The notes below the pieces were generated by a model that ran no database searches, had not been told where the DNA came from, and saw only the letters and a program-made list of their open reading frames with translations. Shown in pieces: positions 9,985-36,070 of a stretch of DNA of 37,095 nucleotides. This DNA comes from Candidatus Methanoperedens sp. GTDB lineage: Archaea > Halobacteriota > Methanosarcinia > Methanosarcinales > Methanoperedenaceae. The stretch lies in assembly GCA_023249105.1 (NCBI GenBank), contig JAHFDG010000040.1, forward strand, positions 1 to 37,095, read 5' to 3'. The position numbers were made by a program, and so were the translations under genes. Each line of letters starts with the position of its first letter. Positions within the stretch are counted from its first letter, which is position 1.

Positions 9985-9985
9985 A

Positions 9986-18395: not shown

Positions 18396-21005
18396 TTAGA
18401 AATCATCTGTTATCAGAATGTCCACTTCAACGGGTATTTCAAATAGCTCTCTTTGTATTGCATTAGTATCTTCATCAATCGCTTTTAGATTGTACGTTTT
18501 GTTCATGATATCGCTGCTAAGGGTTAAAATGACCTCCTGGATCCTTTCTTCTGGTTCATCTGAAGTGCTGTCAAAAATGACCAATTTTTCATCACTGACC
18601 TTTCGTCCATCACTATCCCTCAAAGCTATCTTACAGCTGAGAGGCTCACGTTTATCAGTCACTTTTCCGGTTTGTAGTAATCTTATCTTAAAAGGGCTGC
18701 TGGTGATCTTTTTGTGGGAATCCAGGGCCGTGATCTCGACTTTGCCGTGTTCTATCCCTTTTCTGTCAAGGTCTGAATCATAGCGGTTGTGATTGTAAAT
18801 AAGCACTGGTATCACGATCTCCTGTAATGATGCCCCCCCGTGGACATAATTTACTCCGCCGCCCTGGGATTTGAAGCGCAGGTCTGCAAGCGGTATGTAT
18901 AGATACATCTTCTTTTCAGAATCAACGGTTGAAGCCATACTGAATTTGTGTGTGTTTTTTAATGTCAGGTCTTGCTCGCTCAAGATAAAACGCTTGTTCG
19001 AGTCGAGTATCTTGTTCCTTTCAAAATCCTGTGTTTCAAGCTTATCGACACTTTCGAGGTGTTCTCTCCTATAAATAAAACCGTGATCCGAAGTGATTAT
19101 TACCTTTGTAATATTGAGTGATCTGCCAAGACGATTGACCATTTTGTCAATATCCTGGATAGTTAATCCCACTGCATCGAAGACATTATGTTCAGATGAT
19201 AATTTATCTCCTGTATCGTCTATCCTGTTATGATAGATGTAGATCACTCTTTTTCCTCTGACCTTATCTCTTGCATCATCTGTTTTTAGTTCCTTAAGTT
19301 CATCGAACCTGAATGCCACAGAATCTGCAAAGCTCTTTGTCAGGATTTGTTCCCTGTTTTCGGTGCCTTCTGAGTCAATCCCATCCACAAAGACGCGCCC
19401 CTTACTGTACTCAAGCCTGCTGTTGGGTAAAAGGCTTGCCATGCCAAGTTTAGTGTATGATGGAAGTGAGCCTGCCATTGCTTTTAATTCCATCGTGCCT
19501 TTTGTGCTTTTGTTGAGCACTTCTTTCAGTTCGAAAGCACTCTCATAGCGCAATCCATCTGAGATTATGACAGCGACCTTGTCTCTATCATTCTTTCGGA
19601 TGATACTGTCGATGTAGGTTTTGTAGAAAATGTTCTGTTTATCTATGAGTTCTATGTTCCATGTGTTTTCAAGCTCTGAGTTTATCAGATCGCTCCATCG
19701 AGTGAGAAGTCTATCAAGCATCCTGTTATATAGGTTTTCAACTTTCTCTTTGATGTCTTTCTTTAGTATTTCTTTCTCACTGTCCTTATCAAAGTGGTAG
19801 TAGAATTTGCGGTAATAATAATCGATAAGATAGTAGCGGTTTGTATATCCTTTAAATAGCTCATTCAGGTTCTGCTCATTGATACCTCCCTTTTCGATTT
19901 CTTTCGAGAATTCATGGAGTTTAATAGCATTTTCAAGAGCACAGTATATGTTCTCATATGCACCATACCAGTGTTTTGTTTTTCTCCTGTCAATCCATTC
20001 AAGATATTTTTCAAAATTTTCGCTGCTTTCATTGAGTCCTATTACGATATTGCGGATGATGTTTTTGTCAAAAATATCGGCAGATTCAGCTTCAAGGTAA
20101 TCTTTTACTTCATATTTATTCAAGAGCGATGTCAGACTCGTTTCCAGCTTGTGTTCATCTTCCATAAGCAATTGATCGCAGTACTCATCGAATTTCTTTG
20201 AGTCATTTGAATGATCCATCCAACCTCTAATGAATATCTCACATTCATTGCTCTGTTTGTTAGTGTATTGTTTATAGGATGTCAGAGCTACTTTTGTGTT
20301 CCTGCTGATGTGGGTTATAATGAAGCTCAAGAACAGTTTTTTTAATGTTGGATGTTCTGATGAAAAACCAAAAAGACTTTTCATCATATTCCAAAATTCA
20401 GTCATGAGCCCATAATTTTCAATCTCGCCCCATATCTTATTTTCTTCTTCTTTGAGTGAACCCAGAAGCAATTTCCTGACAATCTCCTTCTGATCTATAG
20501 TTGATGAACCTGTGAGTACAGCAAGCATACCTGCCACAAATTGATCTTCTTTCCAATCGCTCTGGTAGAACGGCTTGAAAGCCGAAACCCTCTTTTTATT
20601 ATCAAAGAATCTGGAATTTGCTTCCAGGAATTTATCAAGGTAGTAATCTTCAACTCCAATCTCGCTTTTAATATCCGAGATCTTGCTGTTCTCAAATCTC
20701 GATGAATAGAGCTGTATGTCGAGCAGCCAGTTTGACCTGGGGTCTCGTTCTGCAACAGGCGAATAGATTAGATAATTTGACCCTGTATCATCATTTTCAA
20801 GTAGCTTCTTTGTTTGAAAGAAGTTGTTGTTCAGGATGTGTAGTTTTATATTATGCTCAGCAAGGGTGGATTTAATAGATTCAAGACCTTCAGGATCGGC
20901 AGTTTTGTCTTTATCATACCAGAAGACGATCTTTCTTTTTTCATACTCATCCCTGACTTCGAACTTTTTGAGTATGCTCTGGATTGTTTTTTCCACATTT
21001 AGCAT
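18396..21005 (-). CDS. pglZ: BREX type 1 PglZ phosphatase-domain protein
   Basis: PglZ is a core BREX protein with an alkaline-phosphatase-like fold, required for defence and for BREX methylation in several systems. The 869-residue protein has a helical N-terminal half and the PglZ domain at about 470-760. Visible metal-site motifs are VAVIISDGLRYES (D483), YHNRIDDTGD (591-600) and VIITSDHGFIYRREH (D640, H641). The C-terminal 120 residues look beta-rich. Size fits the type 1 form (about 850). It begins 3 nt after the cysteine-rich gene, so translation is probably coupled. In most type 1 operons pglZ directly follows pglX; here nearly 7.4 kb of other genes come between. Confidence 0.95.
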   Translation of the reverse strand: MLNVEKTIQSILKKFEVRDEYEKRKIVFWYDKDKTADPEGLESIKSTLAEHNIKLHILNNNFFQTKKLLENDDTGSNYLIYSPVAERDPRSNWLLDIQLYSSRFENSKISDIKSEIGVEDYYLDKFLEANSRFFDNKKRVSAFKPFYQSDWKEDQFVAGMLAVLTGSSTIDQKEIVRKLLLGSLKEEENKIWGEIENYGLMTEFWNMMKSLFGFSSEHPTLKKLFLSFIITHISRNTKVALTSYKQYTNKQSNECEIFIRGWMDHSNDSKKFDEYCDQLLMEDEHKLETSLTSLLNKYEVKDYLEAESADIFDKNIIRNIVIGLNESSENFEKYLEWIDRRKTKHWYGAYENIYCALENAIKLHEFSKEIEKGGINEQNLNELFKGYTNRYYLIDYYYRKFYYHFDKDSEKEILKKDIKEKVENLYNRMLDRLLTRWSDLINSELENTWNIELIDKQNIFYKTYIDSIIRKNDRDKVAVIISDGLRYESAFELKEVLNKSTKGTMELKAMAGSLPSYTKLGMASLLPNSRLEYSKGRVFVDGIDSEGTENREQILTKSFADSVAFRFDELKELKTDDARDKVRGKRVIYIYHNRIDDTGDKLSSEHNVFDAVGLTIQDIDKMVNRLGRSLNITKVIITSDHGFIYRREHLESVDKLETQDFERNKILDSNKRFILSEQDLTLKNTHKFSMASTVDSEKKMYLYIPLADLRFKSQGGGVNYVHGGASLQEIVIPVLIYNHNRYDSDLDRKGIEHGKVEITALDSHKKITSSPFKIRLLQTGKVTDKREPLSCKIALRDSDGRKVSDEKLVIFDSTSDEPEERIQEVILTLSSDIMNKTYNLKAIDEDTNAIQRELFEIPVEVDILITDDF

Positions 21006-21008: not shown

Positions 21009-21482
21009 TTAGATCAAATCTCCATAAGGTCCTTCTTCACCACAATGTCGGCAGGGTAATGTTACTCCATATGTACATTTGTTACAATTTTCGCAGTGCC
21101 ATTCTCTCCAGTCTCTGCATTCTTTGCATATTTCACAATGCCATGAACAATCATCCTGAGCCACAACATTCCAACAAAATGAATACCAATACTTAGTCCC
21201 GCATCCTTTGCATTCATATTCTTTGAATAAATTTTTCAACTTTACTTTTTCGCATCCGCATGGTAATTCATATTCCTTATCCAATTCTTCCCGTGATAGA
21301 TTTTTGACAATGTTAATATTTTGAAGTGCACAGGTTGAATACTCTTCCACATCTATACCATTAAGCGGATTCTTGCAATCAACACATCCGCATTTATCAT
21401 CACACGGTTCTTGATTTTTATAACAGGAACACCGGCTATTTATGCATCCTGATTTACAGTTACAATTATAGTTCTTTTCCAT
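21009..21482 (-). CDS. Small cysteine-rich protein with tesmin/TSO1-like CXC domain
   Basis: This 157-residue protein has 24 cysteines. Residues 7-36 follow the spacing C-x-C-x3-C-x4-C-x-C-x6-C-x3-C-x-C-x2-C and continue with KN. This is the pattern of the CXC (TCR) domain of tesmin/LIN54/TSO1, which binds zinc and DNA, apart from one residue fewer in the first gap. A second cluster from about 91 to 147 ([24 protein letters not shown]) resembles CTCHY-type zinc fingers. The likely role is zinc-dependent binding of DNA or protein. It lies 2 nt after the HTH protein gene and 3 nt before pglZ, so it is embedded in the BREX operon. I know of no standard BREX component like it. The function is inferred from the fold pattern only. 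Confidence 0.75.
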
Positions 21483-21484: not shown

Positions 21485-21856
21485 TCAGGACTCCCTAATC
21501 ATTTTTTCAAACTCATCAAGACTGGCTTGCAGGGTAGATTTTTTCAGTTCCAGCGTAGCAACTTGAATTTTTAACATCTTCAATTCCTTGTTGGTTTGTG
21601 CAAGCTCTTTCTTGATTTTTTTCTTCTTGAGGCAGCTACTGCCGTGTTTTTCATCTACGAATGCTTCCACTTCACTTCGGATCAGCTTCAGATACGGACT
21701 CCCAAATACACTATTAACATGGTAATGCAGCTTGCCATCCTCAATGCCCTTAATAATTTCCTCCTGTGTGAGTCCAAATTCTTTTCGAGCAGACTTATCA
21801 CTGAGAGTAGCTCCCTTTTTAAACCATGAGGATTTTACGTCTTCAACTTCTGTCAT
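21485..21856 (-). CDS. Small HTH-like protein with C-terminal coiled coil
   Basis: The product has 123 residues. The N-terminal part (about 15-75) reads like a MerR/excisionase-type helix-turn-helix: a segment with [20 protein letters not shown] is followed by an extended stretch and a helix ([17 protein letters not shown]). The C-terminal 45 residues are lysine-, leucine- and glutamate-rich and should form a coiled coil that dimerises. It is probably a DNA-binding adaptor or regulator, perhaps acting on its own operon. It lies 18 nt after the AlbA_2 gene and 2 nt before the cysteine-rich gene. I do not recognise it as a standard BREX protein. The function is inferred. Confidence 0.7.
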
Positions 21857-21874: not shown

Positions 21875-23275
21875 TTAGTTAAGGTCTGGCGTCTTTGGCG
21901 TCTTTATGGCGTCATTGTGGCGTCTTTGGCGTCTTAGGATGTATGCTGTACCTTTTCCGGTAATACCGATCTGTTCAAATAGTCCTTTTGAAACAAGTTC
22001 TGCAAGATCCCGTGAAGAGGTTCTTTCAGATGTATTGCAGACTTCCTGATATTCTTTGTTTGTTATGTTTCCATTCTTTTTAACATACATCGCAGCTTTG
22101 ATCTGCCTCTCATTCAAATTCAGGCTGCGCAAATAATCTTCATTATAAATATCCTTTCTAAATACTACCTGAAATCCCTGATCTTCCTCAAATATCGGTC
22201 CCGGTAGTCCTGCATTAAGACAATATTTTTGCATTTTTTCTATGCCGCTGCCCCATTGTTCGATCAGTTCAGTATCATAGAAGACTTCTGCTAATCCTTT
22301 ATTTCGAAGGGCAGATGAATGTGGTTTGTAGAGTTCATCCAATGTAATTCCAAAAGGTAAATGACCGGGACTCCAGATTACCAGTTTATCTTCAAATATT
22401 CGTATCTCAATATGAGATAAGAGTGTATAATCCCTGTGACAGACAGCATTGATGAGCGCTTCCCGCAGCGCTTCTAGGGGATAATCCCATACCTGGTCTC
22501 TTTCAGGTTTGCCTGTCATTATGAATTCAACATTTATATTTTTATGAATGAAATCCATACCTTCATCGATCTGCTCAAATAGAGTTCCTGTAATCATCCT
22601 GTCGTCAATAACTATATTTCCTTCTTTGAACCTGCCGCAGTGTATCGCAGCCTGGGAGATGATTTTTTGTGGCTCTTTGCCAAAAAGAAGAACTGCTGCC
22701 CATGTGGGCTGTCCACTGGCAATCAGATTCATTTTTTCAAGAACCTGAACCGGATTCTCATCATCGCCGATCTTTTTTCTGCCTGTTTCTTTTGCTTTTT
22801 GTGTATATTTTCTGATAGTCTCAAAATCAATATCTTCAAGGCTGGCATTCTGGGCAGGATATTTATCCCAGCTCAATCCTGTGGAATGCAAATGCATTTG
22901 TGCGATCTCTTGCGGGGTCATTGAGCGATTGCTGCTGTCCACTCTTTTGAAGCACCTACCTTTTATTGAAACTGGTTTTATTGGATATTCTTTTATCTGA
23001 ACCGCTATGACGGTCTTTTCATCGATCTGTATCTTTTCAATTTCAGGGATGAGCCTTGGTTCAGTGCTTATAGATATCTGGTTTACCCACTGGTTGATTG
23101 TTTCTTTTCCAACCTTTATTCCTTTGATGTTGTTTTTATCGGATACGCCTATGAATATTACACCGCCTTTTGTGTTGGCAAAAGCTACTAAGGATTCAAT
23201 GCATCGCTCATCGAATTTTTCTTTGAATTCGACGGTTGGTGATTCTCCGGTTTTGATGAGGTCAGGCAGGTTCAT
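21875..23275 (-). CDS. AlbA_2/Schlafen-domain ATP-binding protein (RecG-like transcriptional regulator family, COG2865)
   Basis: The 466-residue protein has three parts. An AlbA_2 (Schlafen-type) domain at about 1-125 includes VEFKEKFD and AFANTKGGVIFIGVSD. A divergent GHKL-type ATP-binding domain at about 250-380 includes ALREALINAVCHRDY and EQWGSGIEKMQ. A C-terminal winged helix follows (about 395-450). Members are annotated as transcriptional regulators or RecG-like proteins, and Schlafen-type domains can act as RNases. Such proteins are often found beside BREX genes, but their role is unsettled. The C-terminus (KTPKTPDLN) comes from five GGCGTC units in the DNA. The gene starts 6 nt after the TIGR02391 gene. 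Confidence 0.85.
   Translation of the reverse strand: MNLPDLIKTGESPTVEFKEKFDERCIESLVAFANTKGGVIFIGVSDKNNIKGIKVGKETINQWVNQISISTEPRLIPEIEKIQIDEKTVIAVQIKEYPIKPVSIKGRCFKRVDSSNRSMTPQEIAQMHLHSTGLSWDKYPAQNASLEDIDFETIRKYTQKAKETGRKKIGDDENPVQVLEKMNLIASGQPTWAAVLLFGKEPQKIISQAAIHCGRFKEGNIVIDDRMITGTLFEQIDEGMDFIHKNINVEFIMTGKPERDQVWDYPLEALREALINAVCHRDYTLLSHIEIRIFEDKLVIWSPGHLPFGITLDELYKPHSSALRNKGLAEVFYDTELIEQWGSGIEKMQKYCLNAGLPGPIFEEDQGFQVVFRKDIYNEDYLRSLNLNERQIKAAMYVKKNGNITNKEYQEVCNTSERTSSRDLAELVSKGLFEQIGITGKGTAYILRRQRRHNDAIKTPKTPDLN
21888..21933. repeat. Five spaced GGCGTC units at the 3' end of the AlbA_2 gene
   Basis: GGCGTC begins at 21888, 21897, 21908, 21919 and 21928, with steps of 9, 11, 11 and 9 bp. 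The steps are not all multiples of three, so the same unit is read in different frames. It covers the last codons of the gene. Repeats like this can change length by slippage and alter the C-terminus. Confidence 0.6.
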
Positions 23276-23281: not shown

Positions 23282-24085
23282 TCATTTATGGCTATTATCA
23301 ATTCTTCGTAATACATAGGATGCAAGGGTGAAAAGGTCTAAAGCATCTTGTTCTTCAAGATTCCATTCTATTTTTGGAGCGTGAGCTGTTGGGTTACGAA
23401 ATGTTCCAAACAATCCCTTCGCCAAGTTGGCAAATCCTCTTTGCTCACTTTTTTCTGTTTCTGTTTTGAACGCATTAATCTTAAGAATTGGATCGGTTCC
23501 TCCAAAAGCATCATCTATAAGTTGACTTCCATCACTGGAAAGTCCAGTCATAGAACGAATCTTTGATGCCACGCTTTTTGTAGCTTCAAGCACAGCATGG
23601 AAATAATTCTCTTGAAGCAATTCAGCACTGCAAAAACGCAGTAAATCATTATGCAAGTTACGATCTGAAACTGAGGACTTAAATTTTTTAGCCCTCTTTT
23701 CTGCTTCTGATAATGAAGAAACAGGCTTGACGGTATGAAAATTACCATCATCTCTGAATTCTAATCCATGAAAGGCTAAAACAATATTTATGCTTCTCAA
23801 TATTGATTCATAGCGTTCTATGTTATTGATATACTTCGTAGGCTGCAATGCTTTGGCGATAAACGAAAGAACTTTATTACCAGCCTGATGTTTATTTTGT
23901 TCTTCAGCAAGCGCATTGTATAGGCGTTTCCACTTCGTCATCATTGGATCTGTATCGACACTACCGATTTGGGCTAATGTGTGAGCAATCTCACTCCCAG
24001 TTAATCCATTATTGGTATCCGCCAGAACTTTGCACAATGCTTCAAGATCCCCTGATGGAAATGGATTACGTTTTATATCCCCCAT
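23282..24085 (-). CDS. TIGR02391 (Ymh) family protein with HEPN-like Rx4H motif
   Basis: The product belongs to the TIGR02391/Hypoth_Ymh family by the shape of its C-terminal half (FHAVLEATKSVASKIRSMTG, then FRNPTAHAP). R-N-P-T-A-H is an Rx4H motif (R232, H237 counting from TTG 24091) like the active site of HEPN RNases, which act in toxin-antitoxin and abortive infection systems. The alpha-helical composition suits that fold. RNase activity is inference. I prefer ATG 24085 over TTG 24091 because GGAGGG lies 7 nt before ATG but touches the TTG. The gene follows the pglX remnant by about 40 nt and precedes the AlbA_2 gene by 6 nt. Confidence 0.75.
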   Translation of the reverse strand: MGDIKRNPFPSGDLEALCKVLADTNNGLTGSEIAHTLAQIGSVDTDPMMTKWKRLYNALAEEQNKHQAGNKVLSFIAKALQPTKYINNIERYESILRSINIVLAFHGLEFRDDGNFHTVKPVSSLSEAEKRAKKFKSSVSDRNLHNDLLRFCSAELLQENYFHAVLEATKSVASKIRSMTGLSSDGSQLIDDAFGGTDPILKINAFKTETEKSEQRGFANLAKGLFGTFRNPTAHAPKIEWNLEEQDALDLFTLASYVLRRIDNSHK

Positions 24086-24125
24086 AATCAACCCTCCTCT
24101 TCTTGCTGAACTTCCGTAATTTCAT

Positions 24126-24344
24126 TCATATACCCTCCACCAGCCCCTCAAACTTCGCATAATTCACAGCCACGCCATCATCCAGATCAATATCAATAAA
24201 GCTAAGCGCCTTATTATTCAGCTTTTCATCATACGCAACAAGCTCCTGCATCATCTTCCCAAGCCTCTCCTTCTCCAGCTTATCCCGCGCCGAGTCAGAA
24301 AGCATCCCCATCCTTGCATCAAGCTTCGCTTCAAGTTCAAGCAG
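24126..24344 (-). repeat. Direct repeat flanking the Gabija-like module (copy 1)
   Basis: This is the 219-bp copy of the pglX 3' end lying after gajB. Copy 2 is at 28344-28562 in the same orientation, about 91% identical by hand alignment. Recombination between them would delete gajA and gajB and leave one intact pglX end. Confidence 0.85.
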
Positions 24345-24386
24345 AGAGGCAATCTTCATATTCTTCATGTATTTGCACTTGTGCAT
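24126..24386 (-). pseudogene. Second, truncated copy of the pglX 3' end (86 codons)
   Basis: Residues 15-86 match the last 72 residues of the full pglX at 28344-31790; both contain LLELEAKLDAR, GMLSDSARDK and NYAKFEGLVEG. At DNA level 24126-24344 and 28344-28562 align without gaps over 219 bp with about 20 differences (my hand count), mostly silent. The frame has a start (ATG 24386) and a good ribosome binding site (AAGGAGATG), so a small PglX tail may be made. No methyltransferase motif remains. The silent bias suggests the two copies diverged as real genes in different operons before being brought together. Confidence 0.85.
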
Positions 24387-24414
24387 CTTCTCATCTCCTT
24401 TCTTTGAAACATGC

Positions 24415-24429
24415 CCACTTTTAAATCAC
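24415..24429. repeat. 15-bp sequence shared by the gajB end and the brxC/pglX junction
   Basis: CCACTTTTAAATCAC occurs here and at 31787-31801. At both places, read on the minus strand, it contains the stop codon of the gene before a pglX sequence (GTG ATT TAA AAG TGG). It could be a recombination scar. Confidence 0.5.
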
Positions 24430-26460
24430 TGGAACCACGACGGTGGAAGCTGTTTTTGTTATATCAATAATGTCCCATTTATCCTTAAAATCATCTTTAT
24501 TGAATCTGTTTATATGAACGGCAAAACATAACAAGTGGGTTGGTCTTGAAAGTCCAACATAGGTCATTTTTGTGGATTGTTTGTCATATTTTCCTGTGCT
24601 CCTAAAGCTATTACCTTTAAACTGTTCCCTTAGTCTCTCGGATTCATATTTTCGCTGATAATATGTTTCTAAATATAATGTGGCAGTATGCGTTTGGCCT
24701 TTCACTGCGTGGATAGTTGTAACCCCTATCTTTACCCCATCCTTTTCACATACATTATTGTTATTCAATTTACCAGAAACATCTGGCACTGTAACTTGTC
24801 CTCTATTCTCAGTTGTCTCAATAAACTTCTTGCTATAAACTATTGATTTTCCGAAAATATTTAAGAATTCAGATACATAATTTTTTAATTCAGAATAGAC
24901 ATCGTTCTTTCTACCCCTAATAATATTGATACTCCATAGATAAAGTAGTAATTTTAATTTTTCATATTGTTCTTCATTCTTCTCTTTCAGAAAAGATAAT
25001 AGCTTTTGTTTAGTATAATTACGATTGTCAATAAGTATGTCCTCATATCTTAATATTCGTAACAAAGCATTTAAAATGTTTTTCTGGACTGATCCCAATA
25101 TTCTCTTATCTTTATCATAATGTATCAGATAACTTTCCATGCTTGCATAATCTTCTTTTGGTCTTTGATTATCGCCATCAAAATCACACCAATAATCAGT
25201 TAATCCTATCATCTGAACTTCAGGTTTATTTTTAACCCACGCAATAGCTTTATAGGAGTTAAACGAATTGTCTGGCAATTTACCTTCATTGATTAATTGT
25301 TTTATTATTCTCGCAAATTCAGGGATAACATTTTTTATAGAGTCTTCTTTAAAAACAATAACAATCGGCCTAATGTTAACGCCAGTAGAATTTTGAAATC
25401 TTCCTTCAATATCTATAAATTCCAATCCAAAATGCTTAACTAACTCCGCAATTTCTTTTGTTAGGCGGTAACTTCCATTTAGTTTTAAGGTGAACTCCCT
25501 CGCCTTCCATATATCATCCAGTTTTGCACTTCCATTATATATTGCCTGGTTTTTATCCCCTATTCTTTGATAATTTGAAATACTATTTCCGTTGTTAAAA
25601 AAAATATCTTCAAGCAAATCATACTGATGTTGATCCATATCCTGCATTTCATCAACAAATATAAACCTAAATCTTTTTTGGATATAAGTTCTAATTATCG
25701 GATTCTGTTTCAGATAAAAAGTGGCAATATTAAAAGCATATTCATATGAAATTATCCCTTCTAATACGCTTTCTTCAATTATGGTTTTTAGCCCGATAAA
25801 CTTCTTGTTATTCTTGTCTGAAAGAATTACTTCTTTGTTGTCGATTCGCTTTATTTTGTCATCGCAATAATCATAAAATAAAGTTTGAATCTCCTTATCT
25901 ATATATTCATTGCAAATCTCGGATTCTGATTTCGAACATCGTCTTGCCTCAGCCTTTGCTTTCGTTATTTGTCTTCCCCAAAACAATGTGCCTGGTTTAT
26001 CATATTCAATCGACCAATATATTCTTTTAAATTTTTTCAAAATATTGCTTTTATATTTCTCTTCATCAATCCAAGAAATGCGTGTGCCAAGCAAGGTATG
26101 ACCACAAGGAATTGCTAAAAAACCATCTACAAAACTTTGGATAGTTCCAACAAAGTTTGGATATGAAAAAAGCTTGGGACAAAATTTTGCAATCTTATTT
26201 CTGATCTCATCGACAGCAGCATTCGTATGAGAAATAACTAAAATGCCGGAACCATTATCGAATGGAAGATATTTTTCAAGAATTAATAATTTTGCGAGTA
26301 ATGCCGTTGTTTTACCACTTCCGGGAACAGCTTGTAAGTCTATAGTATCCAAATTTTTAATAAAATCCTTTCTTTCAGTATCGAAATGCTGGTTTTCTGA
26401 AAGAAGAATATTTTCTGCATAAACAATATCTTCATCAGTAATATTAATTATCATAGGCAT
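24421..26460 (-). CDS. gajB: UvrD-like helicase, GajB-like partner of a Gabija system
   Basis: This is a superfamily 1 helicase of 679 residues, longer than the model GajB (about 494). Walker A with flanking residues is AVPGSGKT (44-51), Walker B IFVDEMQD (267-274), and the C-terminal helicase motif YVGLSRPTHLLCFA lies near the end. In Gabija, GajB works with the OLD nuclease GajA; binding of nucleic acid ends by GajB is thought to trigger GajA cutting. The ATG overlaps the gajA stop by 17 bp, typical of a paired system. A middle region of about 200 residues beyond the core helicase is not recognised. The name is by analogy, so a more general OLD-UvrD defence pair remains possible. Confidence 0.85.
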   Translation of the reverse strand: MPMIINITDEDIVYAENILLSENQHFDTERKDFIKNLDTIDLQAVPGSGKTTALLAKLLILEKYLPFDNGSGILVISHTNAAVDEIRNKIAKFCPKLFSYPNFVGTIQSFVDGFLAIPCGHTLLGTRISWIDEEKYKSNILKKFKRIYWSIEYDKPGTLFWGRQITKAKAEARRCSKSESEICNEYIDKEIQTLFYDYCDDKIKRIDNKEVILSDKNNKKFIGLKTIIEESVLEGIISYEYAFNIATFYLKQNPIIRTYIQKRFRFIFVDEMQDMDQHQYDLLEDIFFNNGNSISNYQRIGDKNQAIYNGSAKLDDIWKAREFTLKLNGSYRLTKEIAELVKHFGLEFIDIEGRFQNSTGVNIRPIVIVFKEDSIKNVIPEFARIIKQLINEGKLPDNSFNSYKAIAWVKNKPEVQMIGLTDYWCDFDGDNQRPKEDYASMESYLIHYDKDKRILGSVQKNILNALLRILRYEDILIDNRNYTKQKLLSFLKEKNEEQYEKLKLLLYLWSINIIRGRKNDVYSELKNYVSEFLNIFGKSIVYSKKFIETTENRGQVTVPDVSGKLNNNNVCEKDGVKIGVTTIHAVKGQTHTATLYLETYYQRKYESERLREQFKGNSFRSTGKYDKQSTKMTYVGLSRPTHLLCFAVHINRFNKDDFKDKWDIIDITKTASTVVVPVI

Positions 26461-28210
26461 ATTTAATAGCCTCTAACAGGTATTCAATTGTTTTATCATC
26501 CTTATTAATAATAATGTCAGGGATTTCTTTTTTACTATCTTCCTCAAGTAATTTGGCAAATTGATAAGCGATCTCAGTTTTATTTAAACCCCTATTATCA
26601 AGCTTCTCAGTGAGGCTTTTCCCAAAATCAGACCAATCAGTCTTAGTATGAATTCCTTTAACTATTTCTTGAAATTGAAGACCAAAACTTGATGATTTTG
26701 AAAGGCAATATTCCAATGTCAGGTGAGGGGATACAAAAGTTTTTACGACCTGCCCGTTGTATTTTAATGTTTTCTTGTCTGTTTCCAAATTCTTTTTTGT
26801 TATCCCTTCTATAATAATATCCTCATCTTCTAGTTTTACATCTAAATCTGTTATTATTGCAACAGGTATACTCATTTCTTGGCCATCGGTTCTTTGGAAA
26901 ATCTTCGCATATCTTAAAAAAGCAGTGCTTGCTACATTGACAATGGAAACACCTTTTTCAGTTAAATTAAAACCTGCCTTCTTTGCTAAAGCGGGTAACA
27001 GTATTTCCTCTGCCCATCCTTCGACAAGTATAACGCCTTTTGCAAAAAATAAGTTCGATTTAGTGGTATCTAAAAATAGTTCTAAGAAAGAATAATCCGA
27101 ATCATCTAATTGTGTATATCCCCGTCCCATGGGATAGGCATGTTTATTCTTGCAGATAATAAGATTATTAAGTTTCACCTTTGAAGCCAGATTTGGACTA
27201 TGGGTTGTTAAAATAAATTGAATATCCTTTTTGTTTTGCAACGATTCGATTATTTGCATCTGGGCTTGGGGATGTAGATGTGCTTCCAATTCTTCAATGA
27301 GACCTAAACGAACACCGTTCCACTTATTTTTATCTAAATGAAGTAATTCAGAAGCAATAAAAAGACGATTTAAAGTACCAAGCCCTGGATTTATTTCATC
27401 TTTGATTGATAATTCAAGTTTTTCAAGAATATTTTTTAATTTTCCCTCCGATACTGTAAATTTAGAGTCCTTTGTTTTATCGTAAAGCTCATGTATCAAA
27501 CCATCTATTTTATCTTTAAGTTCTTTTCCTTTTTTGTCATCAATGTCTTCAAAAGACTTACTTGCATTGTCGGTTGGTTTTTTGGCTTCAAAGTATTTTT
27601 CAATAGATTGATTAAAACTGGTAAATAGTTTTACAAGATGGTGAGATTCTTCCGACCCCTGAAATGCTTCATGACCCTGCAATATCTGTGATAATCTGGA
27701 ATTCTTCTTTGGAATAAATTCTGCTTTCGCATCCCTTAAAGGTTTAAGGAATGTGACTTTCAGATATTCTCTTGCTTCGGCAGTTAATCGGTAGCCCTCA
27801 TCATCAACGCCAGCATGAACATCTGATGGAAATATTTTTCCTTTTTTTCTTGTAACATCGTAAATTAAACGTAAGAATGGTTTTGCGTATTCTCCTTCAC
27901 CATCCCAACCAAGCCATTCTGTAAAATTCTTAGCTTCATCTTCAGCTAAGTCCTTAAATTTAATTTCAATTCTAAATCTTTCAGCCTCTTGGAAAAAATC
28001 CTCTTCCGTTATTCTTAACCATTCATAACTATGTGTGTTTAATACTAATTTTATTGCATCAATAATTGCAGATTTACCGGAATCATTTTCGCCAATAAGA
28101 ACATTTAAACCTTTTTGAAGCTCCAAATCCAAATTCGGCAGATTTATATTAAAATCAGATATCGAGCCAAATTTCCTGAAATTCCAAAGCTTTATGTTTG
28201 ATAAATACAT
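26444..28210 (-). CDS. gajA: OLD-family ATP-dependent nuclease, GajA-like (Gabija)
   Basis: The 588 residues are close to the model GajA (578). Walker A GENDSGKS is at 40-47 and the Walker B region LGLIEELEAHLHP at 303-315. The TOPRIM nuclease domain shows VILVEGWAEE (E397) and AIITDLDV (D455, D457), so all expected metal ligands are present. The middle is helical and charged, as in other OLD proteins. GajA is a DNA nuclease that is held back by normal nucleotide levels and acts when these fall during infection. The gene is cotranscribed with the helicase and has its own TATA box. It lies 133 bp after pglX inside the BREX operon. Confidence 0.9.
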   Translation of the reverse strand: MYLSNIKLWNFRKFGSISDFNINLPNLDLELQKGLNVLIGENDSGKSAIIDAIKLVLNTHSYEWLRITEEDFFQEAERFRIEIKFKDLAEDEAKNFTEWLGWDGEGEYAKPFLRLIYDVTRKKGKIFPSDVHAGVDDEGYRLTAEAREYLKVTFLKPLRDAKAEFIPKKNSRLSQILQGHEAFQGSEESHHLVKLFTSFNQSIEKYFEAKKPTDNASKSFEDIDDKKGKELKDKIDGLIHELYDKTKDSKFTVSEGKLKNILEKLELSIKDEINPGLGTLNRLFIASELLHLDKNKWNGVRLGLIEELEAHLHPQAQMQIIESLQNKKDIQFILTTHSPNLASKVKLNNLIICKNKHAYPMGRGYTQLDDSDYSFLELFLDTTKSNLFFAKGVILVEGWAEEILLPALAKKAGFNLTEKGVSIVNVASTAFLRYAKIFQRTDGQEMSIPVAIITDLDVKLEDEDIIIEGITKKNLETDKKTLKYNGQVVKTFVSPHLTLEYCLSKSSSFGLQFQEIVKGIHTKTDWSDFGKSLTEKLDNRGLNKTEIAYQFAKLLEEDSKKEIPDIIINKDDKTIEYLLEAIKYAYDN

Positions 28211-28240
28211 GTTATTTTCCCATATGGTTTTTTCTTTTGA

Positions 28241-28247
28241 ATATAAG
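28241..28247 (-). promoter_or_regulatory. TATA box for the gajAB pair
   Basis: The minus strand reads ACTTATATTCAAAAG, with CTTATAT at this position. The expected start site is near 28218, giving a very short leader before ATG 28210. The pair could therefore be transcribed independently of the BREX promoter. Confidence 0.45.
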
Positions 28248-28343
28248 TGTCTTTACTTAATTAATCTATTAAACATTTAAATAATGTTGTATTTCAAAAC
28301 TAACATCGCATATACATCCCTCTTGACAAACTACTCAATTACT

Positions 28344-28562
28344 TCATAGCCCCTCCACCAGCCCCTCAAACTTCGCATAATTCACCACAACCCCATCATC
28401 CAGATCAATATCAATAAAAGCAAGCGCCTTATTATTCAGTTTCTCATCATACGCCGCAAGTTCCTGCATCATCTTCCCAAGCCTCTCCTTCTCCTGCTTA
28501 TCCCGCGCCGAGTCAGAAAGCATTCCGATCCTCGCATCAAGCTTTGCCTCAAGTTCAAGCAG
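28344..28562 (-). repeat. Direct repeat flanking the Gabija-like module (copy 2, inside pglX)
   Basis: This is the 3' end of the intact pglX, the partner of 24126-24344. Both copies begin at the stop codon, and the similarity stops where the shorter copy diverges from the reading frame of pglX. Confidence 0.85.
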
Positions 28563-31500
28563 GTAATCAGTCCTCATCTTTGCCAGCAGGGTCTTATCAT
28601 ACCTGTGCATATACACCAGCGCATTGAACCCCCTGCCCTTCCCTGATGTGAAAAGCCAGTATATGGGTCTTTTCTGGTAAGTCCTGGCATGGTCTTTGAA
28701 GAACGACTTGAGGAAATAGTCCCGTATGATCTTCTCAGACGACTCGCCGCCTTTCTTCGATTTTGAGAGCGCCCCTGCTATGAAATCAAGGTTCTCAGCA
28801 AGGCTTTCCGCTCCAAATGTAACTTTGAGGAATTCCTTGAACCTCGATACGATGTCATCTTTAAAGTATTCATCCTCAAGTACAGGGATGATGTTATCAT
28901 CGTCAGGTATAAATGAAGGCACCGGGACTTTTGCCATGAATTCCTGTATGGTATCGCCTTTATTCGCAAGGATGAGCCCTTCCCTATCAAGAGAATACCT
29001 GCCGAACATGCAGCCTACCGCATAGGAAATGAACTGCTTTACGATAACTTCTTTTCTGAACACAAGTTCGCCATCTTTGATTTCAGACTCGTCTTTCAGG
29101 ATGGTAATGTCATCACGCGGTACATCCGGTGTCATTTCGTCTGCAAGGTCGTAAATATCTATGAAGATGCGGTTGAGTTCCTCCTCATTTTCATCGAGCT
29201 TCTGGAATCTGTCTTTCCAGTAAGAGCAGTAGGTGTCGTATGTGTCTTTGAGCCTTCCTGATGTCTTATGGCGCAGGAGTTCGCTTTTCTTGAAGTCCCA
29301 GCTTGTTTCACGGGAGTCCCACTCTTCGCGGGAGATGTCGATGTTTTGTTGGGTTAAGTTATTTATATGGGATTTTGTATCTTCTGATTTTGGGAATATA
29401 ATTGGAAGTCTGGATATATCTCCTACTTGAAAAGCAATTGTTGGATTTAAGATTTGCAGAAATTCAAAACAAATTTTTGAACTCATGAATGAAGTAATGT
29501 AGAAAATATCTTCTTCTTGTGGAAATAAACTCATTCCATTCACATCAAAAATAAAACCCTTGGTTTTGTATCTTACTCCGAATTTGGAACTACTGGTTAA
29601 TGTCCATGTTATCCCCTCTTTGAAATAAAAATCTTCATTTCGTATTACTGAACCATCAAAATTCTTTAATTCAATTCCATTGTTTTCCCAATTAATTACA
29701 AAGTCATTATTTCCAAACCACTTTCTAAATTCTCCACCTTTATTATAGGGAAACCATTTGTAACCAATAATTGATTCTGGAGATGTACAATTACATTTCA
29801 TATCCTTATAAGAAACTTCGTTCCAATATCTCAAGAAACGTTCATTGTCTGCAGTAGCAAGCCCTTGCCTTGGTGGATAAAAATCTTCCATTTTAGAATT
29901 TCTTTCAAATATTTCTTTCACTTTTGCACTTACCCAATATGCGATAGGACTTTCAGGTATTTTGGAGAAATCATCCTGATTTGACAAAAACAAGCCGAAT
30001 CCTCGATCCAAGAACCAGATTTCCTTTTGTTGGATACTATCTACTGCACCTTGCTTTAAAAATAATCTTCGATATACACCCGTGAAATTTTTATGTTTAC
30101 CATTGTTTATGATAAAAGAGACAGTTCCAAAATCCGAGCCAAAAATACCCCTACCATTATGTAATAATGAAAAAATAGTATGGTCATTCACTATTTTTTC
30201 TCTTAATGTTTGATATGAAGATAAAAACATCCACGAAGGAATATTTATCATTCCAAGAAAACCATAGCTATTGAGTAATTCAAATCCCTTTTCCATGAAA
30301 CACACCATTAAATCCCTTTTTGAATCCGGATATGTTTCTTTTACAAAATTTACTAATTTTGAGTTCATCCCCTTTGATCCCATATACGGTGGATTCGTCA
30401 CAACACAACTATATTTCCTGCTCATGAGCTTTGCCTGCCTTAAAAGCTCCTCAAGTTTCAACCCCACAAAAACAAAATCAAGCGTTCCTTCCTTCTTTAG
30501 CGCTTCAACCTCCCCTCTCAACTTCTCAAAATCAAATCCCGCCACCTTCAATATAGACCCATAATTCTTCGCATCAATGAAGAAATCCCACAGCCTGCAC
30601 AGTTCAGGATACTTCCCTTTATTCAAAGTGCACTCTTCCCTCGTTTCCTGGATTGCGCAGAGATTCAAAGATATCTTCTTGTTAAACAGCTCCTTATCAT
30701 ACATCCTTGCTTTCATCATCAGGGCAAAACCTGCAAGCTGCGCCGCCCGGTCATCGATCTCAAGCCCATAAAGGTTCTTGTTGAGTATCAGGGGCGCAAT
30801 CTCGCTCTCAAGATAACCCTGCGACCTGTATATCTCATACAGCACCTCAAAAGAATACACGAGTATATGACCCGACCCTTTTGCAGGATCAAGAACAGAG
30901 ATCTCTTCAGGACTGGATATCTTCTTCTCAGGAGGTCTGGTCTCCTGCTCTATATAATACTTGAACTTTGACTGCAGGTTTTTATTGGGATTTGATTCAA
31001 GCCACAATCTGCCAACCGAGTTCTCAACCAGGTACTTGACTATCCACTTGGGCGTGAAAAGCTGCGTTGCTGCCGGGATATTCTCCTTGCTTATCTTGAT
31101 ATTCTTCTTAAGATCAGCGAAAACTTTGTCTTTCCGGGGATTGATATAATCCTGGTATATCCACCCGATAACCTCAACTTCCTTCCAGTCTTCCTCTTTG
31201 ATGATTTCGTTTAAGTCCCTCAGGATAGAATCAGTATGCAGCAGCTTATCAGGGAACAAAAGCTCAGTATGATCTTCAATGCTCTCGAACAGGAACGGCA
31301 TGATCTTATTCAGGTAATTGCACATGCTCAGTGTCAAATACTTATACAGCTCCTCATCCTTACCCGCTGACTTCAGTTCAATGACAGTATTCCTGTCAAT
31401 CTTCAAAAAATCCAGTTTCAATGACTTTGTGAGGATATCAGGTTCAGTCTTCCCCGGCTCATTCGAGGAAAATACCTTGACATTCTCAGGAAGGTAACCA

Positions 31501-31790
31501 TTCACTTCCATGTACTTGAGCGCAACAAAACGGTTAAACCATGTGTAGGTGACTTCATCTATCAATTGGTCATACCCTTTTTTCCTCACCTCTCTCACAA
31601 GCTGCTCTCTCTGCCGCTTTATCTTCCTGTTAAAAACCCTACCCCCAATGATTATGGAATCCTCTAATTCCTTATCCACATCCTGTATCTTATCAGGAAA
31701 GATGCCATAATTTGCAGCCCGGTTCTTTGTTTCTTCATAAAGCCTGTCCCTGACAGTATCCGAGAACCTTATGATACTGGCTTTGTCCAC
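28344..31790 (-). CDS. pglX: BREX type 1 adenine-specific DNA methyltransferase PglX
   Basis: PglX methylates adenine in a short site on the host genome, marking self DNA, and is the core methyltransferase of BREX type 1. The 1148 residues match the usual size (about 1150-1220). The SAM-binding motif DPAKGSGH is at 301-308 and the catalytic NPPY at 466-469, followed by a large region (about 600-870) likely to contain the target-recognition domain. The start is GTG 31790, with GGGTGAT nearby as ribosome binding site, 2 nt after the brxC stop. Its last 73 codons are duplicated downstream of gajB. The frame is intact. Confidence 0.96.
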   Translation of the reverse strand: MDKASIIRFSDTVRDRLYEETKNRAANYGIFPDKIQDVDKELEDSIIIGGRVFNRKIKRQREQLVREVRKKGYDQLIDEVTYTWFNRFVALKYMEVNGYLPENVKVFSSNEPGKTEPDILTKSLKLDFLKIDRNTVIELKSAGKDEELYKYLTLSMCNYLNKIMPFLFESIEDHTELLFPDKLLHTDSILRDLNEIIKEEDWKEVEVIGWIYQDYINPRKDKVFADLKKNIKISKENIPAATQLFTPKWIVKYLVENSVGRLWLESNPNKNLQSKFKYYIEQETRPPEKKISSPEEISVLDPAKGSGHILVYSFEVLYEIYRSQGYLESEIAPLILNKNLYGLEIDDRAAQLAGFALMMKARMYDKELFNKKISLNLCAIQETREECTLNKGKYPELCRLWDFFIDAKNYGSILKVAGFDFEKLRGEVEALKKEGTLDFVFVGLKLEELLRQAKLMSRKYSCVVTNPPYMGSKGMNSKLVNFVKETYPDSKRDLMVCFMEKGFELLNSYGFLGMINIPSWMFLSSYQTLREKIVNDHTIFSLLHNGRGIFGSDFGTVSFIINNGKHKNFTGVYRRLFLKQGAVDSIQQKEIWFLDRGFGLFLSNQDDFSKIPESPIAYWVSAKVKEIFERNSKMEDFYPPRQGLATADNERFLRYWNEVSYKDMKCNCTSPESIIGYKWFPYNKGGEFRKWFGNNDFVINWENNGIELKNFDGSVIRNEDFYFKEGITWTLTSSSKFGVRYKTKGFIFDVNGMSLFPQEEDIFYITSFMSSKICFEFLQILNPTIAFQVGDISRLPIIFPKSEDTKSHINNLTQQNIDISREEWDSRETSWDFKKSELLRHKTSGRLKDTYDTYCSYWKDRFQKLDENEEELNRIFIDIYDLADEMTPDVPRDDITILKDESEIKDGELVFRKEVIVKQFISYAVGCMFGRYSLDREGLILANKGDTIQEFMAKVPVPSFIPDDDNIIPVLEDEYFKDDIVSRFKEFLKVTFGAESLAENLDFIAGALSKSKKGGESSEKIIRDYFLKSFFKDHARTYQKRPIYWLFTSGKGRGFNALVYMHRYDKTLLAKMRTDYLLELEAKLDARIGMLSDSARDKQEKERLGKMMQELAAYDEKLNNKALAFIDIDLDDGVVVNYAKFEGLVEGL

Positions 31791-31792: not shown

Positions 31793-34700
31793 TTAAATCA
31801 CCCGGATATTTTTCTTTTTATTCAAAATATCTTTCAAGGCTGCTCTCAAATCCTTAATATACTCATCAAGATCATCTTCGGTATCGATACTCTTTTTAGT
31901 TTTGAATATTGGAGAGCCTCTCAGGATTTCCACAACTTTGCCCTTCTTCTCAATACCATCCTTTCCAGTCTCTCTTCCTGTAGATTTCTCTTTTTCTATT
32001 TTCTCAATTGCACTGCTGTATAATTCGTCGATCCTTGATATCTGGAGTTTCACAAAAGCACAATCATCAGACCCGGTAGAATCTTTTTCAAAATCATTAA
32101 AAATGTCTCTGGCAGATCGTTTGAATTCATCTGAAAAACCTTTATAACTCCCAAGTTCTTTTTCAATATCTGCTTTCACAGTTTTCAATTTGTTCTCTAG
32201 ATCCGTCTCTAGCTTTGATATGGACTCTTTAAGTGAACCTTCTATCCTGCTTTCAAGCTGTGGGAGTAATTTTATTTTTGAATATGGTTCAGTAGAAGCA
32301 AGTATGACCTCGATCTCATCCACATCTTTCCTTACTTCATCGCTCAGGAACTGGGCGTTACGTCTGAAATTCTCTATCTTCTTTGAAACACGCCTGAATA
32401 TCCCCACCTGTGGACCATCGAAAAATGCCATCACAGGCTCTACCTTCTGGCGCAGACCCACAAGTTCAATTTTTCCATCAGCCATCGTTTTCAGAAAAGT
32501 TGATGGATCAGTAACGCCCTGCATCCTGTTCAGGAAATCAGCATACTTCTCGATATCCTCTTTGCCCGGATACCTCTTCTCCTCTGCATATTTACCTGAA
32601 ATCCCCTTTACACCCAGCAGCTCATCAGTGATTATCTTATGAGAATCATTATAAATATCATTCTCCTTCTCAGGAATATCTGTCTTATCGAACACATCCC
32701 TCAAGATCGATCTAACAGATTTGATAATTTCAGCGCCCGTCTTTTTCCTTATCTCAATGACGAGCTTGTCAGCATCCTCCCTTTTTGTAAGATACTTTGC
32801 GATTTCCTCAGCATTAGATACAAGATAGGTTTTCTGATACCGCAGCTTCACCTCTTCAGCAACAAACAGTGTGGCTATAAGACCCGATATGGTCATATCC
32901 TTCCATCCATAGGGCTTTTTTATGAAATGCTCTTTTAAGTCCTTTAAAACAACGGTAGTATTTTTCTCATCACGAATTGATATATAATTCAATACTTCCG
33001 AAAGCGCCAGTTTATTGGTATCTGACTTTCCAATACCATACTTTTCAAGGTCATCAGATCTTAATATCCTGAGGATATCGTTATCTGACTCATAATCCAG
33101 AGTGACATATGAAGATTTACTATAGACATTTTTCAAAAGGAGATTGAATCCTTCTATAACCCTCTCCTTCGGTTTCTTTTTCTCAATACTTGTCACTTCT
33201 TTCCCATCTATGAAGATCTTTGCATCCTTCACACCCTCTTGTATCCCCAGAACCGAGGACTCTTTTGTTCTCACAGCTTCCTGACTTTTATCCAACAATA
33301 TTCGCTGTATCAGAGAATCGTTCCTGTTCGAAGGATTTTGTTTGATGTATTTTTCTATTTGGAGATAGGTTCTTATCTGGTCGGTAAACTTGCTGCGTGC
33401 TGAGAAAATGAAAAGCAGGGTATCAGAAGAATCAATATTACTCAGATTCTCACCATGCAGAGATTTCTGCCCGCTGCCCCGTAACATCTCATCAGAAAGA
33501 GGCGTTAGGAATTTTACTGTCAGATCAGCATTTGTCAGGGTTTTGACCCTGTCATCTACTGCTCTGTTGAATTTATAATCCATATATTTGGCTGGACATA
33601 TTTCATTGGAATTATAGAGCACTTCATAGACTTCATCAAGTATCGAGTGCATCTCAACATCTGTGTTCTTTATCTCCCGGTTGATCTCCTGTTCCTCATT
33701 GGTCAGGAAATGGAAGGTATCGCCGGATTTGCTTATTAGCGTCTGCTCTTCCAATCTCCTGAGGGACTCAGCAACCTTTTCTTTCAATTTCAGCTTATCC
33801 TCATCGACACTAGATATGGACAGTGCCACAAGGTTATCAAGAGTGGGCTGTAGCTCTTTGACATGCCTTATCATGAAAAGGGTTCTTAAAATATCACAAT
33901 CGTTATCCTTAAGATAATTATTCTTTTCTGCCTGTTTTATTGTCCTCGTGATTATCGGGTCAAGAAAGCTCTCAATGGTATTATAGAACAAATGGAATGG
34001 AACCAGAACGCCCACGCTGCTATTGCCATATTCCATAGCAGCCTCTTTAAATGCATTCAGCATCGAGCGCTCGCCTTTTGCCAGATGTTTCCCTGAAAAA
34101 CCTGTTTGCCTGATTTTATCGAACACTTTCTGCAGGAGATTGATCTGGTATGGCACAAAAGGATAGACGCCAATAAAATCCTCCTCCTCCTTATAGTTCT
34201 TCATCTCAGCGCTGCCCCGTGAGAATGAGAACAGGTTTTTCAAAATTATCTTCTTATCAGTATAGAAAGATGCCAGCATCTCCCTGTGTTCTTCCTTCTT
34301 GAGAAGTATCCTTTTTTTGATGACCTCGTCCACATTAGCGCTTGATAGGCTGAGTCTCGTATCAAAACGTGCCTGTATCTTTGAAAAGTCATATCCTTTG
34401 ACCTTATCCTTTGTAACGCTGTCAATATCAGCCTGCGACGTCACTATAACCCATGCTTTCCCTCTCAGTTTTGTTCCGAGCTCTTCCACAACTGTCTGGA
34501 GATTAAGCATTAATTCGCTATCTTCACCTATGTACTGCCCTGCTTCATCGATAAGGAAAATGACCTGATGTTTATCTCCCTTTGACCTGCAATATTTCTC
34601 AATTTTCTTTGCGAATTTCTCAACATCGAGATGGTAATTTTGTCCATCATTCTTAAACATCATTACAGATGCTTCTCTGCTCTGGTATCCACAGTTAGTA

Positions 34701-35344
34701 AGAGCTTCTATTATGTCATCATTTTCAAACGTATATTGATCTCTTATATCTTCCCAGGCGCTGCCATTTATTTTCTTTAACTCCTTTTTGAAAGTGTCAT
34801 AAAGCCCTTTATTCTGCAAGTCTTCTTCGAGTTCTGCGATCCAGAAAACGTCCCCGAAAAACCCTCTTTTTTCATTGAACGCTCTCATAAGGATATTCAC
34901 GATCCGCTCTTTCTCAACAGTGGCAGTATTTGCCTTGGAATCGATATTGAAAAGTATGACATCCTTTGTGCCATATTCCACTGATTTTTCAATGGTTGCG
35001 AACATCTGGGGGTCAGTGATTTTATTTTCAAAAAAACTAAGAGCCGACTTATCAAATACCGTTCTGTTCTCCAGAAGGTAGGATAATATCTTTATAAAAT
35101 GGGACTTACCAGAACCAAAAAAGCCAGAGATCCACACACCGATCTTATCCGTGGGTGTCTGAGTGGCATTATAATATCTGTCAAAGAACTTATCAAAATG
35201 CTTCAATGACTCCTGCGTAACCACATATTCTTCAAGTTCTGTGAAGACGCTATTATCATCGTATTTATCTACTTTAATGACACCATCGATATCTCTTCTG
35301 ATATCTTTTTTAAACAGATCTTCTATCTTAAGATTTGCAGACAT
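31793..35344 (-). CDS. brxC: BREX P-loop ATPase BrxC
   Basis: BrxC is the large ATP-binding core protein of BREX, needed for defence and, in several systems, for methylation. The 1183 residues fit the family (about 1200). Walker A with flanking residues is SGFFGSGKS (73-81) and Walker B VIFLIDEAGQ (261-270). The central region (about 400-800) is helical, and a segment from about 930 to 1130 is rich in charged residues and likely forms coiled coils. A strong ribosome binding site, GAGGTGGTG, precedes ATG 35344. brxB ends 9 nt upstream and pglX starts 2 nt downstream, so the three form a tight unit. No frameshift or internal stop is present. Confidence 0.96.
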   Translation of the reverse strand: MSANLKIEDLFKKDIRRDIDGVIKVDKYDDNSVFTELEEYVVTQESLKHFDKFFDRYYNATQTPTDKIGVWISGFFGSGKSHFIKILSYLLENRTVFDKSALSFFENKITDPQMFATIEKSVEYGTKDVILFNIDSKANTATVEKERIVNILMRAFNEKRGFFGDVFWIAELEEDLQNKGLYDTFKKELKKINGSAWEDIRDQYTFENDDIIEALTNCGYQSREASVMMFKNDGQNYHLDVEKFAKKIEKYCRSKGDKHQVIFLIDEAGQYIGEDSELMLNLQTVVEELGTKLRGKAWVIVTSQADIDSVTKDKVKGYDFSKIQARFDTRLSLSSANVDEVIKKRILLKKEEHREMLASFYTDKKIILKNLFSFSRGSAEMKNYKEEEDFIGVYPFVPYQINLLQKVFDKIRQTGFSGKHLAKGERSMLNAFKEAAMEYGNSSVGVLVPFHLFYNTIESFLDPIITRTIKQAEKNNYLKDNDCDILRTLFMIRHVKELQPTLDNLVALSISSVDEDKLKLKEKVAESLRRLEEQTLISKSGDTFHFLTNEEQEINREIKNTDVEMHSILDEVYEVLYNSNEICPAKYMDYKFNRAVDDRVKTLTNADLTVKFLTPLSDEMLRGSGQKSLHGENLSNIDSSDTLLFIFSARSKFTDQIRTYLQIEKYIKQNPSNRNDSLIQRILLDKSQEAVRTKESSVLGIQEGVKDAKIFIDGKEVTSIEKKKPKERVIEGFNLLLKNVYSKSSYVTLDYESDNDILRILRSDDLEKYGIGKSDTNKLALSEVLNYISIRDEKNTTVVLKDLKEHFIKKPYGWKDMTISGLIATLFVAEEVKLRYQKTYLVSNAEEIAKYLTKREDADKLVIEIRKKTGAEIIKSVRSILRDVFDKTDIPEKENDIYNDSHKIITDELLGVKGISGKYAEEKRYPGKEDIEKYADFLNRMQGVTDPSTFLKTMADGKIELVGLRQKVEPVMAFFDGPQVGIFRRVSKKIENFRRNAQFLSDEVRKDVDEIEVILASTEPYSKIKLLPQLESRIEGSLKESISKLETDLENKLKTVKADIEKELGSYKGFSDEFKRSARDIFNDFEKDSTGSDDCAFVKLQISRIDELYSSAIEKIEKEKSTGRETGKDGIEKKGKVVEILRGSPIFKTKKSIDTEDDLDEYIKDLRAALKDILNKKKNIRVI

Positions 35345-35938: not shown

Positions 35939-35952
35939 TGTAACTATTTCAG

Positions 35953-35972: not shown

Positions 35973-36070
35973 GCTGTGGTTTTGATTTTATTTTGAATAT
36001 ATTGTGTTAAGTTAGCAGTCGCCATCACAACCTCCCGCCGCGCCCCCAACCCTAAGCGCCACGTCTCCAC

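Follow-up and report, generated by a model that had tools for sequence, protein, structure and literature searches.

Lone 3' ends of pglX recur in the cargo slot of BREX operons from archaea and bacteria

Lone 3' ends of pglX recur independently in the slot between pglX and pglZ of BREX operons from ANME archaea, Bacillota and Betaproteobacteria. One of them lies in the window, by which we mean the whole stretch of 37,095 nucleotides analysed here, from the methane-oxidising archaeon Candidatus Methanoperedens sp., where the Gabija genes gajA and gajB stand between an intact pglX and a diverged second copy of its last 219 bp. It is likely, in our view, that the slot grows through displacement of the pglX 3' end, in the style of the orphan modules of CDI and rhs loci. 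Defence islands are highly variable, and to our knowledge little is understood of how one operon takes up or sheds modules when no recombinase of its own assists it.

The slot and its cargo types are not new, as they are described in the portions available to us of three papers (PMC11341690, PMC9009780, PMC12839542), which report PARIS, BrxU, Gabija, Schlafen and HEPN/MNT in the pglX-pglZ interval of type I BREX. Among the ~9,000 genomes in which pglX and pglZ are linked, ~7,000 carry other genes in between (PMC11341690), an indel between the two genes distinguishes Salmonella LT2 from E. coli HS (PMC9009780), and an effector catalogue includes Gabija-type and Schlafen-type cargo (PMC12839542). 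The same portions, which treat the same slot and the same cargo classes, make no mention of lone pglX 3' ends, of a fixed 3' end or of a recombination route. What we report as new is the recurrence of the lone ends, for which we found no description in a literature coverage that left subscription journals and bioRxiv mostly outside; we make no claim of priority.

Results

The BREX operon of the window

The genome amounts to 3.28 Mb in 134 contigs, of which the window is contig C134. Its minus strand carries, in this order, brxB, brxC, pglX, gajA, gajB, a lone pglX 3' end, a Hypoth_Ymh gene, an AlbA_2/HATPase gene, two small conserved genes, pglZ and brxL, and brxB, brxC, pglX, pglZ and brxL share a single operon, as is the case in type I BREX. 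No brxA match was obtained for the ORFs at 36052-36375 and 36594-37061, the window ending at 37095. The features are as follows:

35354-36070, minus strand: brxB (PADLOC BrxB, 1.2e-70)
31793-35344, minus strand: brxC (PADLOC BrxC, E=0; Pfam BrxC domains)
28344-31790, minus strand: intact pglX, 1148 aa (PADLOC PglX, E=0, residues 1-1145)
28344-28562, minus strand: tail A, the last 219 bp of pglX, ending GGTGGAGGGGCTATGA (SD-like GGAGG, and ATG overlapping the stop)
26444-28210, minus strand: gajA, OLD-type ABC ATPase with TOPRIM (PADLOC GajA, 2.1e-218; Pfam AAA_15 and OLD-like_TOPRIM)
24421-26460, minus strand: gajB, UvrD-type helicase (PADLOC GajB, 1.8e-227; UvrD-helicase, 2.6e-24)
24126-24386, minus strand: 86-aa ORF of ~14 codons of other sequence followed by tail B, its ATG standing after AAAGGAGATGAGAAG (matches PglX C-terminal models)
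24126-24344, minus strand: tail B, which repeats the end of pglX with 90.9% identity to tail A and without indel
24088-24129, minus strand: MNEITEVQQEEEG, a stub of 13 codons that opens on the ATG over the stop of tail B (from the sequence)
23282-24091, minus strand: Hypoth_Ymh family gene, PADLOC PD-Lambda-3_B (Pfam 8e-42, PADLOC 3e-91)
21875-23275, minus strand: Schlafen AlbA_2 and HATPase_c_4 protein (Pfam 7.8e-26 and 3.8e-23)
21485-21856, minus strand: 123-aa protein, kept in the G024 and G054 slots
21009-21482, minus strand: 157-aa Cys-rich (CXC-like) protein, kept in the G024, G013 and G054 slots
18396-21005, minus strand: pglZ, right border of the slot (PADLOC PglZ, 5e-275)
16306-18351, minus strand: brxL (PADLOC BrxL, E=0)

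The two Gabija genes have the constitution expected of this system, with a GajA that combines an OLD-type ATPase and a TOPRIM domain and an adjacent UvrD-type GajB. Genes, order and domains are the same as in known Gabija, the pair here lying inside a BREX operon. They overlap by 17 bp, and gajA has its own 134-bp leader and is not coupled to tail A.

Several neighbouring genes deserve mention. The 157-aa CXC-like gene immediately precedes pglZ in G024 and G013, is also present in G054, and possibly encodes an unnamed BREX accessory of this lineage. A 1346-aa protein weakly similar to TmtA models adjoins brxL (12005-16045, minus strand), and a Wadjet-like operon lies at 5241-11449 on the plus strand (439 aa, MksE-like 214 aa, JetC-like 928 aa, JetD 487 aa). 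The large UvrD-type helicase gene at 23-3361 belongs to a family that also flanks BREX in three other loci (L037, L038, L094), and just past brxL a 62-bp stretch (16174-16235) resembles it (73%).

Comparison of tails A and B

A repeat search of the window returned the pair 24125-24362 and 28343-28580 (89% over 238 nt), for which chance is ruled out (E ~1e-84) and which is the sole long direct repeat there above 75% identity. It contains a clean block of 219 bp, 28344-28562 against 24126-24344, with 20 differences (90.9% identity) and no indel. An earlier note on this DNA had placed gajA and gajB between an intact pglX and a second 219-bp copy at ~91% identity and in the same orientation, and was right as to coordinates, identity and strand. 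It had also called the differences mostly silent, which holds well as a rate (dS 0.38, dN 0.07 and dN/dS 0.18 over 237 bp) but less strongly as a count, with 10 silent and six replacement changes among the 16 codons that differ.

Tail B is equally far from tail A (88.6%) and from the pglX tail of G013 (88.9%), and at tail residues 41, 64 and 77 it shares its residue with G013, or with all of G013, G018 and G024, where tail A differs. This agreement with other Methanoperedens pglX genes bears out the view that the repeat is not a fresh duplication. Neither a third copy nor a donor pglX was found in the same genome. Assigned changes, with the few codons that lie upstream of the block included, number 17 on tail B against six on tail A. 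Identity to G024 is 85.0% for tail A and 78.6% for tail B, so that there is no plain case for tail B as the ancestral allele of this locus; its higher rate of change could account for the greater distance. Judged from the sequences, tail B would fit the end of a pglX that came from a different BREX lineage within the genus and later lost its function; in a tree of archaeal tails, support was too low to place it.

Since the 219-bp block has no indel, any crossover within it keeps the pglX frame. A crossover between the two tails could thus in principle leave the reading frame of pglX intact.

Cargo of the slot in related genomes

One comparison within the genus of the window genome is with G024 (DYGR01000009.1), recorded as Candidatus Methanoperedens nitroreducens. 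Its pglX end is followed by a DUF1016-like gene, Ymh, AlbA_2 and pglZ, without Gabija, and the right flank of the window (Ymh, AlbA_2, 123 aa, 157 aa, pglZ) is collinear with it. The stub MNEITEVQQEEEG, whose reading frame extends into the Ymh gene, may be the remnant of a coupled cargo gene, as G024 carries its DUF1016-like gene at the same point.

Gabija is found at the same place in three other genomes, with the order pglX-gajA-gajB: G090 (L087), G099 (L088) and G127 (L049). Four of the five genomes of the window's order that have a close GajA, the window included, carry it directly behind pglX, and G090 possesses a second operon with an empty slot of ~120 bp (L100). The AlbA_2 and HATPase_c_4 gene is a frequent slot cargo among the relatives compared in this order. 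Alleles lacking the module, which the earlier note proposed to search for, thus exist both here (G024) and in bacteria, where L158 and L163 lack HEC-01, and other cargo does stand between pglX and a lone pglX tail in other loci. In E. coli, 352 genomes matched a pglX 3' query at 353 places; the commonest chromosomal BREX rows listed had no pglX-pglZ cargo, and this species was therefore dropped as a population test.

Two archaeal loci carry large in-frame deletions: in L033 (G018:C66) the PglX tail has been joined to the BrxB N-terminus, with a dGTPase gene coupled directly to the fusion, and in L038 (G024:C18) the start of BrxC is fused to PglX pieces. In these loci the cargo outlives the BREX core.

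Recurrence and specificity of lone pglX ends

We surveyed 103 loci from public genomes and viral contigs for copies of their own pglX end. The last 197 bp of pglX are duplicated in a Hydrogenophaga MAG (L174, 94%) and the last 101 bp in the isolate Virgibacillus sp. MSJ-26 (L133, 93%); a betaproteobacterial MAG (L164) has a lone pglX tail at 90%, and the isolate Desulfosporosinus metallidurans (L132) a second pglX end at 84%. Complete second pglX genes also occur, in Bacillota. Among ANME archaea, a single slot of G058 contains five tail pieces, and that of G013 a 49-bp tail together with internal pglX bits. No tail was present in any of the ~24 slots of Methanosarcinaceae. With a 130-aa query, which misses short tails, lone tails appeared in 1 of 9 Burkholderiales and 1 of 39 Bacillales pglX genomes, so that they represent a minority state; most cases come from MAGs. 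As to mobile carriers, viral contigs gave only distant pglX (41-48%), and none had an ANME-type tail.

As a control, the search for second copies within the locus was applied to 14 segments of five BREX genes, the pglX 3' query being 600 bp long. Second copies of the pglX 3' end turned up in 13 of the 105 loci, and 11 of these copies extend to the stop or close to it; segments of brxB, brxC, brxL and pglZ gave only 5 in 739 tests (Fisher p=4e-9, or p=5e-6 for terminal copies only, values to be taken as a guide since the loci are not fully independent). A scan of 35 archaeal slots with the full set of BREX core genes matched no core gene other than pglX. Matches to 'pglX codons 625-654' in L048, L099 and L103 were set aside, as they are probably due to AlbA_2 sequence carried in the L039 query.

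Virgibacillus sp. MSJ-26 (L133 with L212 and L213, G187:C3) has, beyond the 101-bp tail in its slot, a 556-bp terminal pglX piece downstream of brxL.

Anatomy of the tails and start of the cargo genes

The lone tails have a 3' end fixed at the pglX stop and a variable 5' end, with lengths of 49, 53, 60, 63, 74, 101, 139, 197, 219-237 and ~397 bp; non-terminal pglX fragments are also found in some slots (L034, L041, L042, L133). With 5' breaks so variable and the 3' end fixed, 219 bp is not a unit and a fixed attachment site is disfavoured. A docking unit of 219 bp is therefore not supported. Nor, on our reading, does the tail form the right-hand arm of the Gabija module: it belongs with the cargo that follows it downstream, whose displaced leader it would be.

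In Methanoperedens, pglX ends in GGTGGAGGGGCTATGA or a similar sequence, which combines an SD-like stretch with an ATG overlapping the stop. Of 105 primary pglX genes, 24 are followed by an ORF of 100 codons or more that starts no further than 15 nt from the stop; the lone tails of L034 (TIR-like), L036 (dGTPase), L174 and L164 are likewise followed by an ORF that opens on the stop-overlapping ATG. However, only ~5 of the 13 lone tails overlap a full-length ORF, and stop/start overlaps occur at other BREX genes as well (brxC 7/63, pglZ 7/74, brxB 6/65). From its sequence, the lone tail may plausibly serve as a translation leader of the cargo; as such overlaps are not special to pglX, we put this no higher than plausible.

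Two archaeal slots show repeats of a larger kind. In L034 (10601-11900, G013, reverse-complement), a direct repeat of the pglX end and the start of the TIR-like gene flanks an inserted nucleotidyltransferase/RelE-like pair. In L036, a near-identical repeat (7566-8395 and 16259-17159, reverse-complement) of AlbA_2 N-terminus, pglX tail and DUF1016 start lies within one slot, and is either a recent duplication or an assembly effect.

Shared cargo and a mosaic tail

The genes behind lone tails come from families whose members immediately follow an intact pglX in other genomes. TIR-like and dGTPase genes, for example, follow lone tails in some loci and come first behind an intact pglX elsewhere. 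The clearest case is L164, with the order pglX, HEC-01A/B, a 139-bp pglX tail and a PDC-M25A gene. Homologues of this last gene (80% identity in Acidovorax L158, 79% in Giesbergeria L163) lie directly behind pglX in both genomes, with an overlapping start and no HEC-01 between.

The lone tail of L164 is also closer to the L158 tail (83.0%) than to its own pglX (80.9%). Along its length it is first like its own pglX and then, near the stop, like L163 (17:1 then 0:6, permutation p=0.0002, 14 comparisons). This mosaic is direct evidence of exchange within the pglX tail. The same test in the window gave p=0.03 to 0.10 before correction, which is suggestive only, and the window provided neither a decisive mosaic nor a close pair of strains with and without the module. 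The proposal that pglX 3' ends act as homologous docking sites therefore stands in part: exchange within the tail has direct evidence in the one case of L164, but there is no 219-bp unit, and on our reading the tail belongs to the downstream cargo.

Discussion

Origin of the lone tails

We favour displacement as the probable origin of the lone tails, and infer the following order of events. DNA from another BREX locus would bring in the 3' part of a pglX together with its own cargo, here gajAB, recombining by homology on the pglX side and joining elsewhere on the far side. The incoming end would become the 3' end of the working pglX, and the last 50 to 400 bp of the resident pglX would remain before the resident, older cargo. 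Left-over tails would be kept, or deleted more slowly, where they hold the translation start of the cargo, that is the SD-like stretch and the stop-overlapping ATG. The two tails, as direct repeats, could then lead to loss or exchange of the intervening DNA. By this route Gabija would have reached the window behind an incoming pglX end now seen as tail A, with tail B left to the older cargo.

The chief rival, which we regard as unlikely, supposes that two complete pglX genes of different specificity once stood in tandem with Gabija between them, and that deletion cut the second to its tail, with no cassette-like exchange. Tandem complete pglX genes are indeed common in Bacillales, where they occur in 4 of 39 pglX-bearing genomes (G191, G727, G961, and G759 with three), as well as in L127 and L165, and in L042 and L051 a pglX tail is immediately followed by a pglX 5' end. 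However, such decay leaves unexplained why the surviving pieces nearly always end at the stop, why lone-tail cargo shares 79-80% identity with genes found immediately after an intact pglX elsewhere, and why the L164 crossover lies near the stop; moreover, the window has no 5' or middle pglX piece adjoining tail B. Decay and displacement may also be stages of one process. It appears improbable that tail B was instead kept as a working peptide, in which the C-terminal segment of PglX alone would, for example, dock cargo proteins on the BREX complex. The 86-aa ORF with its own SD-like site, the in-frame fusions that run as far as the stop of pglX in L036 (101 aa), L033 (BrxB N-terminus and tail) and L164 (69 aa), and the dN/dS of 0.18 would agree with such a role, yet replacement changes accrue faster in tail B than in tail A, many tails encode only 15-25 residues, and a low dN/dS is expected if both tails evolved in whole pglX genes until recently.

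Two further explanations can be given very little weight. An element that integrates by site-specific recombination at an attachment site within the end of pglX could have brought gajAB and duplicated the target end, and the same orientation and restored 3' end of pglX do resemble attL/attR around elements that use gene 3' ends; we hold this highly improbable, as neither the ORFs of the window nor family scans revealed an integrase or recombinase between the copies, the repeats vary in length between 49 and 397 bp, and the copies share 84-94% identity, none being identical. Hardest of all to credit is an assembly artefact or a fresh local duplication, conceivable in a genome of 134 contigs. 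An assembly error is unlikely because 20 of 219 sites (9%) separate the copies, the right flank is collinear with G024 and the order pglX-gajA-gajB is found in three other genomes; flanks are matched by other genomes, and the lone-tail pattern also occurs in the isolates L133 and L132.

Comparison with known systems

Displacement at BREX loci would parallel the model proposed for CDI orphan modules, in which a newcomer joins the main gene and the older module is pushed downstream with a piece of that gene (PMC4927057). In the available portions of the papers on orphan cdiA-CT/cdiI and rhs-CT/rhsI arrays (PMC4927057, PMC3967940), a new 3' module likewise joins the main gene and displaces the older one downstream on the same strand; the displaced module keeps a homologous piece of the main gene, and the arrays that form can recombine back. 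Partial same-strand 3' copies downstream, each with a module, are what we observe in the window, G058, G013, L174, L164 and L133. The displaced part, however, is not a polymorphic toxin with its immunity gene: in CDI and rhs loci it is the toxin-coding 3' end, whereas in BREX it is the conserved, non-effector C-terminus of PglX, and the cargo consists of separate defence genes.

Integron cassettes also form an exchangeable array in which each gene is joined to a repeated short element. In contrast to them, no integrase was found here, and what is repeated is a stretch of coding sequence, variable at its 5' end and placed upstream of the cargo. The site-specific recombinase and fixed site of integrons or integrative elements were not found, with no recombinase between the copies.

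We raise more tentatively, as a possibility that we somewhat doubt, that the pglX 3' end is a portable adaptor which would offer each new defence gene both a homology arm for docking and a ribosome-binding site with start codon. Archaeal and bacterial BREX operons would then gather and exchange immune genes as cassettes that enter behind pglX and need no recombinase. Joint transfer of the tail and the start codon, if it occurs, would explain why unrelated cargo families begin at an identical point. Lone pglX tails provide a readable footprint of past module boundaries and reveal which cargo once stood first behind pglX, so that the turnover of BREX cargo becomes directly testable with strain collections. 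A gene starting on a pglX tail is likewise a simple cue to missed defence genes.

Finally, PglX is split in two ORFs (residues ~1-577 and ~603-1147) in several archaeal genera (L036, L039, L088 and L091-L096, from G058, G138, G099, G110, G097, G135, G098, G107 and G144), often with an AlbA_2/Schlafen-type gene between the halves, and its methyltransferase and specificity parts may there be separate proteins.
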